From contig NZ_CAMZCS010000009.1 in NCBI RefSeq assembly GCF_947305105.1, positions 1-64,000 of the forward strand: 64,000 nt of DNA. The letters are read 5' to 3'. This DNA is from an uncultured Fibrobacter sp. Lineage in GTDB: Bacteria > Fibrobacterota > Fibrobacteria > Fibrobacterales > Fibrobacteraceae. The translations under genes were made by a program, and so were the position numbers. Positions within the stretch are counted from its first letter, which is position 1, and every line of letters begins with the position of its first letter. Below are positions 35,250 to 62,635 of the stretch, piece after piece. Below the pieces are notes generated by a model. It was not told the origin of the DNA. It made no database searches and worked only from the letters and a program-made list of their open reading frames with translations.

Positions 35250-35255
35250 AACGGG

Positions 35256-35350
35256 AAAAAAATTAAGGCTTCCGGAGAGTCCGAAAGCCTTTTGCAAACA
35301 CTTGATGAAATCGGCAAAACCGGACTCTATGTTCTAGAGCCCCACCACCA
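35256..35350 (-). promoter_or_regulatory. trp attenuator before trpBA
   Basis: Right after three Trp codons (35342-35350) an RNA hairpin GGGCUCUA / UAGAGUCC can form (1:2). Its second arm can instead pair with CGGACUCU (35276-35283; 8 bp with 35321-35328), which would break the terminator GGCTTTCGG / CCGGAAGCC followed by a T run (3:4; 35256-35291). This is the classical arrangement: ribosome stalling at Trp codons would favour read-through. Confidence 0.88.
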
Positions 35351-35419: not shown

Positions 35420-35445
35420 GGGGTTGCCTTTAGAAAAACGAAAAA

Positions 35446-35613
35446 AAGGAAGGCTTCCGGTGTGTCCGGAAGCCTTCTGTTAAACACTTGATGAAATTGG
35501 CAAAGCCAAAATCCCGTTTCGAGAACTTCATCGCAAGCTGCGCAAGCGTCGAAGCGGATTGCCAATTTCATCTTTATGGTAAGCAATATATATACTAATT
35601 CGTTGTCTGTCAA
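35446..35613 (-). ncRNA. Trp-poor third copy of the leader: short terminated transcript
   Basis: A near-consensus promoter TTGACA (35613-35608), 17 bases, TATATT (35590-35585) drives a segment similar to the trpBA leader: both share GCAATCCGYTTC near the start and ATTTCATCAAGTGTTT before the terminator. Here the Trp codons are replaced by a Cys/Ala-rich stretch. A perfect 14-bp stem (35490-35503 with 35559-35572) closes the body, and a strong terminator (GGCTTCCGG / CCGGAAGCC plus T run, 35446-35480) ends it. A frame from the ATG at 35571 runs 64 codons through the terminator to a TGA overlapping the trpL ATG. It may be a small RNA, a diverged attenuator, or a relic. Confidence 0.6.
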
Positions 35614-37952: not shown

Positions 37953-39611
37953 TTAAGACAACGTAGCAAACAGCGCCCTCATTTTTTCATGGTTCTTGAT
38001 TCCGGGGGCGTCTTCGACACCGCTGGAAACGTCAATGAGTTCAGGATGGAACTTTTCGCAAATCGTGCCCACATTTTCGGGCGTGATGCCGCCCGCAAGC
38101 CAGAGCGGAAGATCGCTCGTCTGTTCGCGCAGCAATGACTCAGGAATAGTTTTGCCTGTACCGCCGGGAATGCCCTCAACTTTTGCGTCTAGCAAGATGC
38201 GGGGTTCCCCGTTCTTACGGAGGTTGGCGACTTGTTCGAAGTCGGAGGCTTCGCCCACGCGGACGGCTGCATAGCAAGGAATATCCGGATAGAGATTGCT
38301 TCGCACTTCGTGCTCGCAATGACATGCTTGGTTTGATTGCGCAGGAGCTTGCTTTGACAGCACGGGGGTCGGGATTCCATGGAACTGCACGGCATCGAGG
38401 ACGCCTTCCTGCGCGAGCTTGATGGCTGTCTTGCCTTCTTCGGAATTCAGGTCGGTAATGACACCGACGAGGAGCGGGATTGAACAAGCGAGACAAGCGT
38501 TTTGATTGTCATTGCGAGCAAGGCGAAGCAATCGCTCTTTAAAGCTGCGCACAAACGTTTCGGTCGTGAGCCGTTTTGTGGTGCTGAATACAAACCCGAG
38601 CATGTCTGCGCCGAGTTCGGCGGCCAGCATGCCGTCTTCAACGCGCGTGATGCCACAGATTTTGACCAAAGGACGATTCTTGCCAAAGATTGCTTCGTCA
38701 CTTTGTTCCTCGCAATGACAAGTGACGTTAGACGATGCGTGAATGTGTTTCAGCACTTTTCGTTCCGCAAACTTTTTCCAGAACTTGCCTCGCGCATTTT
38801 CGCAGCCCGCTTCAAAGGCGCCAACCACTTCTTTCGCCAGCGGAGGATTCTTCGCAACGGCCTCCCCCACAAGGATTCCCGTGAATCCGAGGCTGCGCGC
38901 ATAGGCAGCATCGCCAGCACTCAAAATGCCTGATTCAAAGACAGCCTTGGCCGGGAGCTTGCTGCGAACCGATGCCGGCACCAGCGGATCCGTATGGAAC
39001 GTAGCCAGGTCGCGCGAATTCACGCCCGCGACAACCGTCTTTGCAGCTGCATCGCCAAGCGCTTCCAGCACGAGGTTCAGCTTGCGGAAATCATCCTTCT
39101 CCCGGACCTCAACAAATGCCTGGATCCCAAACTTCTGTGCACGGCGAGCCATTTTCACGAGTTGTTCGTCATCAAGAATTCGAGCAATCAAGAGGACCGC
39201 ATCGGCACCGCAGCGATAAGCGATATCGATTTCGTCTTCGAACAAGAGAAAATCCTTGCGGAGCACTGCGCACGCATGCAAGCCCTGTTGACGACGGCGT
39301 TCCATAAGGTCGGCCACCGCAATCAGGTCACGGAGAGAGCCCTTGAAAAAATTCCCTTCGGTGAGCACCGAAACCGCCTGCGCATGAGCTTCGGCATAAG
39401 TCGTCGCCAAAGCCACAGGGTCCAAATCAGGCGCAATATCACCCTTCGATGGCGATGCACGCTTGACTTCAAGTATCGCCCCCGCATTGCCGAGAAATTC
39501 TGTATGGCCACCACGGCGCCGTTCCGGGATTTCTATTCCAAAATTCAAGCCTAACCGCTCGATATCCTCACGGCGCATCCGCACTATCTTGCTCAGAATG
39601 TCTTCACTCAT
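37953..39611 (-). CDS. trpCF: Fused indole-3-glycerol phosphate synthase / phosphoribosylanthranilate isomerase
   Basis: 552 residues from the ATG at 39611, after AAAGAGGAAAAG. The N-terminal TrpC half has EVKRASPSKGDIAP, VLRKDFLLFEDEID, GVNSRDLATF and ESGILSAGDA; the C-terminal TrpF half has VKICGITRVEDG, DMLGFVFSTTKR, VQFHG and LAGGITPENV. It makes indole-3-glycerol phosphate from N-(5-phosphoribosyl)anthranilate via CdRP. Three short palindromic repeats are inserted in frame: in the linker (NVTCHCEEQSDEAI), in the TrpF helix region (LLRLARNDN) and in a loop (ACHCEHEVRSN). All motifs I can see remain, so it is probably active. Controlled by the WWW attenuator upstream. Confidence 0.94.
   Translation of the reverse strand: MSEDILSKIVRMRREDIERLGLNFGIEIPERRRGGHTEFLGNAGAILEVKRASPSKGDIAPDLDPVALATTYAEAHAQAVSVLTEGNFFKGSLRDLIAVADLMERRRQQGLHACAVLRKDFLLFEDEIDIAYRCGADAVLLIARILDDEQLVKMARRAQKFGIQAFVEVREKDDFRKLNLVLEALGDAAAKTVVAGVNSRDLATFHTDPLVPASVRSKLPAKAVFESGILSAGDAAYARSLGFTGILVGEAVAKNPPLAKEVVGAFEAGCENARGKFWKKFAERKVLKHIHASSNVTCHCEEQSDEAIFGKNRPLVKICGITRVEDGMLAAELGADMLGFVFSTTKRLTTETFVRSFKERLLRLARNDNQNACLACSIPLLVGVITDLNSEEGKTAIKLAQEGVLDAVQFHGIPTPVLSKQAPAQSNQACHCEHEVRSNLYPDIPCYAAVRVGEASDFEQVANLRKNGEPRILLDAKVEGIPGGTGKTIPESLLREQTSDLPLWLAGGITPENVGTICEKFHPELIDVSSGVEDAPGIKNHEKMRALFATLS
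38294..38324 (-). repeat. Palindromic element in trpCF, copy 3 (TrpF loop)
   Basis: On the coding strand TGTCATTGCGAG-CACGAAGTG-CGAAGCAATC; the CACGAAGTG centre is near-palindromic. It is translated as part of ACHCEHEVRSN. Confidence 0.75.
38508..38537 (+). repeat. Palindromic element in trpCF, copy 2 (TrpF helix region)
   Basis: TCATTGCGAGCAAGGCGAAGCAATC, in the opposite orientation to the other two copies. On the coding strand it reads LLRLARNDN. Confidence 0.75.
38688..38720 (-). repeat. Palindromic element in trpCF, copy 1 (interdomain linker)
   Basis: Coding strand TGTCATTGCGAGGAACAAAG then TGACGAAGCAATC, read as CHCEEQSDEAI. It lies between the TrpC and TrpF halves. Confidence 0.78.
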
Positions 39612-39644
39612 CTTTTCCTCTTTGGCACCATGGTCCCGGAACCT

Positions 39645-39735
39645 AAAAAAGGCATCCGGTGAGTCCGAATGCCTTTGTAAACCTTTCCAGATTAAACGCA
39701 AACACGGACTCTATCCAATAGAGCCCCACCACCAG
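39645..39735 (-). promoter_or_regulatory. trp attenuator before trpCF
   Basis: Trp codons at 39726-39734 are followed by the hairpin GGGCUCUAU / AUAGAGUCC (1:2), then an alternative pairing GAGUCCG / CGGACUC (39705-39711 with 39661-39667), and the terminator GGCATTCGG / CCGGATGCC with a T run (39645-39676). Same logic as 35256-35350; arms differ by paired changes (ATT/GAT versus TTT/GAA in the terminator), which supports a selected structure. Confidence 0.88.
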
Positions 39736-39782
39736 CGGTTGGCAAAAAATTCTTTTGCTGTACTTGCCACTTTAATCTGCAT
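39711..39782 (-). CDS. trpL: trp leader peptide (WWW) before trpCF
   Basis: 23 residues: MQIKVASTAKEFFANRWWWG then SIG, stop TAG. It shares NRWWWGS with the trpBA leader while the rest differs. The -10 box ends seven bases before its ATG, so a leaderless message is predicted. Confidence 0.85.
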   Translation of the reverse strand: MQIKVASTAKEFFANRWWWGSIG

Positions 39783-55205: not shown

Positions 55206-56483
55206 TTAAAACAAAGCGATATTGTAAGGAGGAAGGGCACCCTTCGGCTGCTTGATGGTATTCTTCTTCTTGCCGTTCCACGTGACAACAGCAGGAACGG
55301 AGCGGTCACCGACATAGAGCAAACCATCGTCAATAGCCATGGAGCCGGACATGTCGGTAAATCCTTCGACATCATCCACCTTCTTAGCCGAAATGTCGAC
55401 CTTCTTCAAGGCCTGTATTGCAGCATAATTTTCGTCGTAGCCGAGGTTGATGCTCACGTAGACAACTTCGCCATCGACAACCATAGAAGCAATGCCACCA
55501 CCCAGATCTTCACCGGAAATCAGCAATTCGGATTTTTTCTTGGAGACATTCACCTTCTCGATACCGCGCTGGCTGTCGGCATCGGTGCCGTAAGCAGCAT
55601 TGTATTCGCCATGAGTCGCCACATAGACATTACCACCAATAACAGCGACGTTCGAGGGATTCTTGCTCTTGAGCTGGATCGTATCCTTCAGGTCGCCCGT
55701 AGAGGCATCGTAGATAGCGAGCAGGCCCTTGGGATAAGTAACCACATAGTTTTCATCCTGCGTGTAGCGCTGCATCAACACATAGAGGGAGCCGTCATCG
55801 AGTTCGATGTCGGCCACATACGGAGAATGTTCGCCTTCGTAAGCAAACTTTCCGATTTTGATGGATTTTTTAACCTTGCCGTCTTCCGTCGAAATTTTCA
55901 CCAGGGAGTCGGCATTCTGCAAAGCGACCCAGGCCTGATCTCCATCAAAAGCCATGTCAACCGGATTCGCTTCATCGTCCAAAGAAACCTGCCAAACTAC
56001 GGCCTTCTTGCCTTTGGATTCCAACTTCTCGGGGTCAATCTTTGTAATGTTATCCGCACCCTTGCGTTCCAGCACATAGAGGTCGGCTCCGTTCGTAACG
56101 ACCTTGGAATCTTGGTGGAAGGAGAGGGAACTTTCAGAAATCTTTCCGTCCTTGTCAATCCAGCGGAGTTCGCCAGTCGAGTAGTCGGAACCAAAGACCA
56201 CACCCGTCAAGGAAACACTTATTTCCGAAGAGCTGCTGGATTCTTCAACAGAAGAACTGCTGGCTTCTTCGACAGAAGAGGAACTCTTGTCCTTCTTCTT
56301 CGAAGAGCTGCTGCCTTCGTCATCGTTAGACGACGAACTGAGTTCCGGTTCATCGCCTGTAGAAGACGGGCCCGAACTGGAGTCGTCGCCGCAAGCCGTC
56401 ATAAAGACGAGAGAGGCAATGGACAATGCGGCGAAAGATTGCTTCGCCACACTCGCAATGACATTCTTTTTCATTTTATTCAT
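55206..56483 (-). CDS. BtuG-like beta-propeller lipoprotein (cobalamin binding)
   Basis: 425 residues. AAGGAAC precedes the start. The signal peptide MNKMKKNVIASVAKQSFAAL...MTAC contains VIASVAKQS, the translation of an inserted palindromic element. Poly-Ser/Lys linker to about 95. The rest is a YncE/DUF5074-like propeller with repeated blades (GADLYVLERKGADNITKID; DQAWVALQNADSLVKIS; GNVYVATHG; GGIASMVVDGEVVYVSI; DGLLYVGDRSVPAVVTW). It directly follows a TonB receptor gene under a B12 riboswitch, the arrangement of btuB-btuG in Bacteroides, where BtuG holds B12 on the surface lid of BtuB. Function by context and fold; ligand inferred. Confidence 0.82.
   Translation of the reverse strand: MNKMKKNVIASVAKQSFAALSIASLVFMTACGDDSSSGPSSTGDEPELSSSSNDDEGSSSSKKKDKSSSSVEEASSSSVEESSSSSEISVSLTGVVFGSDYSTGELRWIDKDGKISESSLSFHQDSKVVTNGADLYVLERKGADNITKIDPEKLESKGKKAVVWQVSLDDEANPVDMAFDGDQAWVALQNADSLVKISTEDGKVKKSIKIGKFAYEGEHSPYVADIELDDGSLYVLMQRYTQDENYVVTYPKGLLAIYDASTGDLKDTIQLKSKNPSNVAVIGGNVYVATHGEYNAAYGTDADSQRGIEKVNVSKKKSELLISGEDLGGGIASMVVDGEVVYVSINLGYDENYAAIQALKKVDISAKKVDDVEGFTDMSGSMAIDDGLLYVGDRSVPAVVTWNGKKKNTIKQPKGALPPYNIALF
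56437..56463 (-). repeat. Palindromic element in a signal peptide
   Basis: On the coding strand TGTCATTGCGAG-TGTG-GCGAAGCAATC, encoding VIASVAKQS inside the BtuG-like leader. Confidence 0.75.
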
Positions 56484-61393: not shown

Positions 61394-62635
61394 CTAATTC
61401 TTTACGCAGCGTACAGGCAATGCTTCAACGGCAGATTTTGACTCAGTTTGAAACATAACGACATCTTTTCTCACTTGACTATAATTAAACTGGGCGCATT
61501 GCGCAGAATAATTATCATGATCCGTTGCTGTCCATAAATAACTCTTATTGCCACGGTTGGAAAATGAAGCATTGTGAACAACTCCTGACGGAAGAACAGA
61601 AAAACCATACGAGTCAATTCCAGGCCAATTCTCCCAATCAGAGAAACTCTTTAAAACATCGCCAGCTTTAGAAACGCCAACAAAGTTTACCAATTTCTCC
61701 CATTCTTTTTGATTGGGAAGATGCCAACCATTAGGACACACGCCCTTTATTTTAACAGTATCAGATGGGGAACATTTTTTTCCTGCTCCACATTGTATGG
61801 AATACTGTGTATATAACGAAATAGAATCTATGGCGGCAGTCCATGTGTAATAACGCCCATATTTTATTACGCAAGAATCAGCACCTCCTTTGTAGCATGT
61901 AGACCAAATAGATGTATTGGAAATTATTGACACTTCATAATTGAGATTTTCCGCCATCCATTCCTGTTCGCCAATTTTTACTGTTTTATAAGTTTTTCCA
62001 TCACGGTCATCATACAATGTACCATAGATGCAATTGTCTTCAGTCCTTGTTTTGCAAACACCTGTTGCCACTAAACTACTTGAAGAAGTTTCAATTACAC
62101 TTGATGAACTTTCTTCTGACGAGGATGATTCTTCCAGCTTTACACTTGACGAACTTTCCGATGACGATGATTCTGCCGGTTTCACGCTGGAAGAACTGAT
62201 TTCTGATGAAGATGATTTCGCCTTGCTGCTGCTAGATTCTACAGGTTTGTCTGAACTAGATGATTGAACATTCTTGGAACTTGAGGACACCTCGTTCTTA
62301 CTGCTGCTAGACTCTACCTTACCGGAACTAGAGGATTCCTTGTTTTTAGCTGAACTCGAAGAAACTTCGTCCTTGACGCTGCTAGAAGATTTCTTGTCAT
62401 TGCGAGGAGTCGAAGACGACGAAGCAATCTTTTTACTTGACGAAGTGGAAGCAATCTTTTTATTGCTAGACGAAGACGCATCAGCCTTTTCGCTCGACGA
62501 AGATACTTCGGTTTCGATGCCGGTTTCCTCGTTTTTTGAGGGACCACTTGAACTTTCGTCGCCACAGGCAACAAAACCGACCACTGCCGCGCAAAATCCA
62601 AAAGCAATCAGACCTTTTATGAAGGACTTTTTCAT
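61394..62635 (-). CDS. Lipoprotein with Fibrobacter major paralogous domain (TIGR02145)
   Basis: 413 residues from the ATG at 62635 (GAGGAG upstream). Signal peptide ending VVGFVAC, a poly-Ser linker of about 150 residues, then the paralogous domain: YKTVKIGEQEWMAENLNYEV, GRYYTWTAAID, CPNGWHLPNQKEWEKLVNFV, SYGFSVLPSG, YLWTATDHD and a final LPVRCVKN. The family is highly expanded in Fibrobacter and probably acts on the cell surface; the exact function is not known. Confidence 0.92.
   Translation of the reverse strand: MKKSFIKGLIAFGFCAAVVGFVACGDESSSGPSKNEETGIETEVSSSSEKADASSSSNKKIASTSSSKKIASSSSTPRNDKKSSSSVKDEVSSSSAKNKESSSSGKVESSSSKNEVSSSSKNVQSSSSDKPVESSSSKAKSSSSEISSSSVKPAESSSSESSSSVKLEESSSSEESSSSVIETSSSSLVATGVCKTRTEDNCIYGTLYDDRDGKTYKTVKIGEQEWMAENLNYEVSIISNTSIWSTCYKGGADSCVIKYGRYYTWTAAIDSISLYTQYSIQCGAGKKCSPSDTVKIKGVCPNGWHLPNQKEWEKLVNFVGVSKAGDVLKSFSDWENWPGIDSYGFSVLPSGVVHNASFSNRGNKSYLWTATDHDNYSAQCAQFNYSQVRKDVVMFQTESKSAVEALPVRCVKN

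Follow-up and report, generated by a model that had tools for sequence, protein, structure and literature searches.

The analysed window, a stretch of 64,000 nucleotides from an uncultured Fibrobacter sp., carries on its minus strand trpCF (37953–39611), the gene for a bifunctional indole-3-glycerol phosphate synthase/phosphoribosylanthranilate isomerase. The open frame covers 37953–39701 (-) with a likely ATG start at 39611, and its product matches the Pfam domains of IGPS (PF00218, E = 3.4e-46) and PRAI (PF00697, E = 1.9e-22). The KICG and LLDA motifs of TrpF are conserved and align to solved PRAI enzymes, and an orthologue is present in 64 of the 80 genomes of the genus. Judged from the codon comparison, strong purifying selection acts on both the TrpC and the TrpF domain (dN/dS 0.03–0.14). 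The open frame and these low ratios rule out that trpCF is a pseudogene.

Upstream of trpCF, a short frame with three tandem Trp codons (MQIKVASTAKEFFANRWWWGSIG; 39711–39782, -) precedes a strong hairpin and a T run (about 39640–39680, -). The arrangement resembles a classical trp transcription attenuator, and a similar leader peptide was found in three of the other relatives examined. The window holds terminator-like hairpins of similar sequence, AAGGCTTCCGG...CCGAAAGCCTT, at 35255–35294, 35440–35479, and 39639–39678.

Three exact copies of the palindrome GTCATTGCGAG-N-CGAAGCAATC lie within trpCF, all in frame. As the first-pass annotation had described, one falls in the linker between TrpC and TrpF, the other two fall within TrpF, and both orientations occur. 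Their peptides are read through: site 1, in the linker (38688–38719, -), gives CHCEEQSDEAI, and site 2, within TrpF (38508–38533, +, opposite to the gene), gives LLRLARND, or LLRLARNDN as first noted. Site 3, also within TrpF (38294–38323, -), adds CHCEHEVRSNL. The gene assignment is confirmed by the two Pfam domains, and dinucleotide shuffles of the window produced 0 matches to the strict family-A pattern, GTCATTGCGAGN{1,20}CGAAGCAATC, thereby excluding a chance origin of the three palindromes.

Alignment to 1dl3 puts site 2 of TrpF in the connection from helix alpha2 to strand beta3, and site 3 in the segment from beta4 to beta5, with strands and helices named as in the PRAI fold. The alpha-beta connections of (beta-alpha)8 barrels face away from the active site, on the opposite side. 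The insert peptides might be surface-exposed, as the alignment to known PRAI enzymes suggests; we relied on this alignment because a single-sequence AlphaFold model of TrpF alone failed (pLDDT 36).

Comparison with trpCF genes of relatives

We aligned 62 trpCF genes from relatives within the genus. Between the same landmarks, the linker of the window gene measures 36 residues, compared with 12–14 in several element-free relatives. Its site-2 segment measures 26 residues, compared with 13–18, and its site-3 segment 34, compared with 10–13. In L035, a 90%-identical relative, the site-2 element is absent, and the site-3 element has a 12-nt in-frame deletion. The corresponding sites of relatives are empty, or hold the same family, or hold another palindrome family: B (GTCATCCTGAG), C (GTCATTCCCGC), or D (GGTGAGCCTGTCGAA and its partner), of which B and C are also abundant across the genus. 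By strict definitions, which we also used for the changes on the tree given below, site 1 is occupied by family A in 10 genes and by D in 6; site 2 by A in 13, B in 17, C in 2, and D in 6; and site 3 by A in 7, C in 1, and D in 4. At least one element of the four families occupies the three sites in 39 of the 62 genes.

Because relatives lack the palindromes or hold other families at the same site, the sequence comparison identifies the trpCF palindromes as genuine inserts. Such an alignment with element-free relatives had been proposed at the outset, and the empty or differently filled sites bear out the insertion. The pattern that would speak for native residues, namely relatives with the same residues and no repeat DNA, was not observed: the residues are present where the repeat DNA is and missing where it is not. 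No palindrome elements were found in the TrpC and TrpF catalytic cores of the 62 genes. Occupation of three positions only, and never of these cores, supports the initial suggestion of selection for tolerable sites. Five further matches fall in the N-terminal part of the aligned reading frames, and at least some of them are probably upstream of the true start.

The repeat family, its long form, and other target genes

The family-A consensus reads T/C-GTC-ATTGC-GA-(variable hairpin)-GAA-GCAAT-CTC: a T/CGTC tag precedes an outer stem of ATTGC/GCAAT, the internal loop is GA/GAA, and the inner stem varies. This genome has 40 strict copies, and 957 strict copies were counted across the 80 genus genomes, 72 of which are positive. 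Since the spacer length varies, a fixed-spacing version of the pattern gave 0 matches in the genome. ATTGC/GCAAT is present in every strict copy, and the outer stem formed in four of five folded copies; the linker copy at site 1 folds poorly as a single strand. The inner stems vary between copies with their complementarity kept: when 3' halves were swapped among copies, the observed pairing was reached in 0/2000, 3/2000, 0/2000, and 6/2000 trials for inner lengths of 13, 14, 15, and 17, respectively. Of 30 copies of this genome, 26 have T and 4 have C immediately before GTC; among 110 copies from other genomes, 65 have C and 41 have T. The tail is CTC in most copies of this genome, and CCAG in 44 of the 110 copies elsewhere. 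Among the matches listed, family A occurs in Alphaproteobacteria, Chloroflexi, Bacteroidia, Cyanobacteria, Patescibacteria, Omnitrophota, a Rickettsia, and others. A literature search by the repeat sequence returned no relevant match.

The site-3 insert extends past its palindrome, and its 5' extension (38316–38353, -), which includes the first palindrome bases, is part of a dispersed sequence. The pattern AGCAAGCTCCYGCGCN{4,30}GTCATTGC is found in 8 of the 80 genus genomes, at loci including trpCF site 3 of G018, trpCF site 1 of G067, and others. In full form, at trpCF site 3 of G018, trpCF site 1 of G067, and other loci, bases of this type belong to the 5' portion of an element of about 104–112 nt with three hairpins (L346–L353). 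There they lie between a GTCAT...ATGAC hairpin, an GGTTATCCA...TGGATAACC hairpin, and the family-A hairpin, the last of which is at the 3' end. Window site 3 (38294–38353) is a truncated copy of this long form. Full-length copies were taken from the alignment, as a regular expression for the full length gave none; compared with shuffles, one of them folds significantly (z = -5.29), whereas the result is not significant for two others (z = -0.77 and -1.00). Rfam gave no match in the trpCF region, nor at the long-form loci at gathering scores.

About 13 of the 40 strict copies of this genome are intragenic, some of them within Pfam-supported genes. The genes hit include truB (L003), a topoisomerase with two copies, an aminotransferase, siroheme genes, and a Fib_succ_major protein, whose domain suggests that the genus is Fibrobacter-like. 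The topoisomerase loop (L029) bears two family-A elements separated by some 60 bp, and this loop and TruB around residue 98 show recurrent multi-family insertion, as in trpCF. truB has been reported as a REP/RPE target in Rickettsia, Stenotrophomonas, and others (PMC3733652). We therefore rejected trpCF as a unique target; it is a rich case of a general habit. As for the claim that three copies in one gene are unusual, three is the highest number per gene here, but intragenic insertion itself is common and TruB and the topoisomerase are hit recurrently as well.

Family-A elements also occur in two predicted lipoproteins of the window. One lies in a signal peptide (56437–56462, -; MNKMKKN-VIASVAKQS-FAALSIASLVFMTAC), and a similar VIASVAKQSL is found in the signal peptides of other lipoproteins (L006, L121, and L131). 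The other lies in a Ser-rich linker (62396–62429), where the minus-strand reading is IASSSSTPRND.

Explanations for the recurrent insertions

We consider it probable, at roughly 0.78, that the inserts are non-autonomous GTCAT-tagged hairpin repeats tolerated as loop peptides, with turnover by gain, in-frame decay, and exchange. The repeat would act like the CGTC-tagged REPs and the Rickettsia elements RPE-4/6/7. The copies in trpCF are in frame at three positions outside the catalytic core, which are the linker, the alpha2-beta3 connection, and the beta4-beta5 segment, within an open frame under purifying selection. Selection would purge out-of-frame insertions and those at other places in the gene, and the recurrence would thus be explained by the tolerance of loops rather than by a benefit. 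Exchange between species might spread some copies, and the insert peptides would be translated, surface-exposed, and nearly neutral. A bolder generalization is that, in this genus, GTCAT-tagged palindromes of several families, together with the three-hairpin relative of about 110 nt, repeatedly reach the same loops of conserved enzymes, and that loop peptides evolve by the exchange of palindromic modules and not by point mutation and ordinary indels. We offer this only tentatively and regard it as rather doubtful.

Targeting instead of tolerance would be at work if these DNA sites were preferred by integration guided by hairpins or by template switching at small homologies. Four families share site 2, where the native AAGATTCGC resembles the arm AGATTGCTTCGC, and the authors of the R. 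japonica study kept such hotspots as a possibility (PMC3767692). However, the insertion points at one site shift by a few codons between families, the empty-site sequences differ between sites, and no constant target duplication was visible by eye in the flanks of 30 copies. Of the marks of a MITE, namely terminal inverted repeats with a target-site duplication, the inverted repeats are present, and clean empty sites in which to look for the duplication are few. Site-directed hotspots seem unlikely to us on this evidence.

Nor do we favour a few ancient insertions with vertical inheritance, many losses, and no recent gain, which we judge improbable. In several species, site 2 holds family A and then family B with a shared GTAGC spacer; this composite points to older insertions with partial loss, as far as it can be read from the sequences, and one old insertion was the origin favoured for RPE-4/6/7 in the R. 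japonica paper (PMC3767692). Against this, sister species carry different families at one site (for example, C in L073/L074 versus A in L069/L088), and sites 1 and 3 are unlike between L037 and L056. In a core-codon tree, the minimum number of changes was 6 for family A at site 1; 9, 11, and 4 for families A, B, and D at site 2; and 4 each for A and D at site 3. The many changes that several families need, such as A and B at site 2, count against the favoured reading. Gain, loss, and horizontal exchange are mixed in the history of the trpCF sites, and these data do not tell them apart.

Across the 80 genus genomes, trpCF holds 25 strict family-A copies where about 0.5 would be expected from a uniform distribution, an excess of about 50-fold that is inflated because the species share ancestry and the 25 copies are not independent. 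The excess could reflect target preference or benefit. As a benefit, palindromes in the trpCF mRNA or their peptides might help the host through mRNA stability, the TrpC:TrpF expression ratio, or enzyme properties, and the structural conservation of the hairpins would fit such co-option. Nevertheless, the same site is empty or holds other families in many relatives, unrelated genes show the same insertion behaviour, and the elements decay in place, all of which makes co-option very improbable. Most improbable of all is movement in trans by a Y1 (IS200/RAYT-like) transposase, the mechanism proposed for GTAG REPs. Such transposases are present in 27 of the 80 genus genomes, but the Y1_Tnp profile, the only transposase family searched, found none in this genome despite its 40 copies. 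Genomes with and without Y1 do not differ in family-A copy number (Mann-Whitney p = 0.98), and CGTC REPs are reported without a dedicated transposase (PMC3733652), leaving a Y1 mover unsupported.

How REP-like repeats enter genes and settle at the same loops is a question dating from the work on Rickettsia. Here, dozens of sequenced species show three positions of one enzyme empty, filled by one family or another, or decaying, and tolerance versus targeting therefore becomes testable. The palindrome route to new loop peptides reaches beyond reduced intracellular genomes. For annotation, peptides like CHCEEQSDEAI or LLRSARND flag inserted repeats and not conserved motifs.

Relation to known palindromic repeats

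The GTAG REPs with their RAYT transposases are likewise short multi-copy hairpins, some of them intragenic, but this genome has neither the GTAG tag on its repeat nor a Y1 transposase. Closer are the CGTC-tagged REPs, CGTC-1 to CGTC-4 (PMC3733652), which share with family A the CGTC/TGTC tag, AT as the first bases of the stem, intragenic copies, and the lack of a dedicated transposase, for which only Y1_Tnp was checked here. Their stem is 8–9 bp with a loop of 4–5 nt, whereas family A has an outer stem of only 5 bp, then the GA/GAA internal loop and an inner stem of variable length; we therefore did not file family A in CGTC-1 to CGTC-4. Their unpaired 3' tail is mostly CCA, and the family-A tail may correspond to it, with CTC prevailing in this genome and CCAG in a good part of the copies elsewhere. 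The host phylum is absent from the phyla given for these REPs (PMC3733652).

The parallel with Rickettsia palindromic elements, drawn already in the first-pass annotation, is apt. Rickettsia palindromes of the ATGAC/CGTC type are reported in solvent-exposed parts of proteins, and orthologues carry different groups at the same locus (PMC3767692, PMC3733652). RPE-4/6/7 (PMC3767692) share with the trpCF inserts the in-frame intragenic position, the different groups per locus in orthologues, and the GTCAT/ATGAC motif, the ATGAC end being the reverse complement of GTCAT; they are reported in solvent-exposed regions, as we infer for the trpCF inserts. We base this likeness on the described behaviour and the motif. 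In contrast to RPE-4/6/7, the repeat described here resides in a Fibrobacter-like host with a 3.57-Mb genome, has a core unit of 26–36 nt, and has many intergenic copies. The behaviour is already known from RPE-4/6/7, whereas the Fibrobacter-like lineage, the unusually rich turnover, the four families sharing sites, and the three-hairpin long form of about 110 nt are added here.
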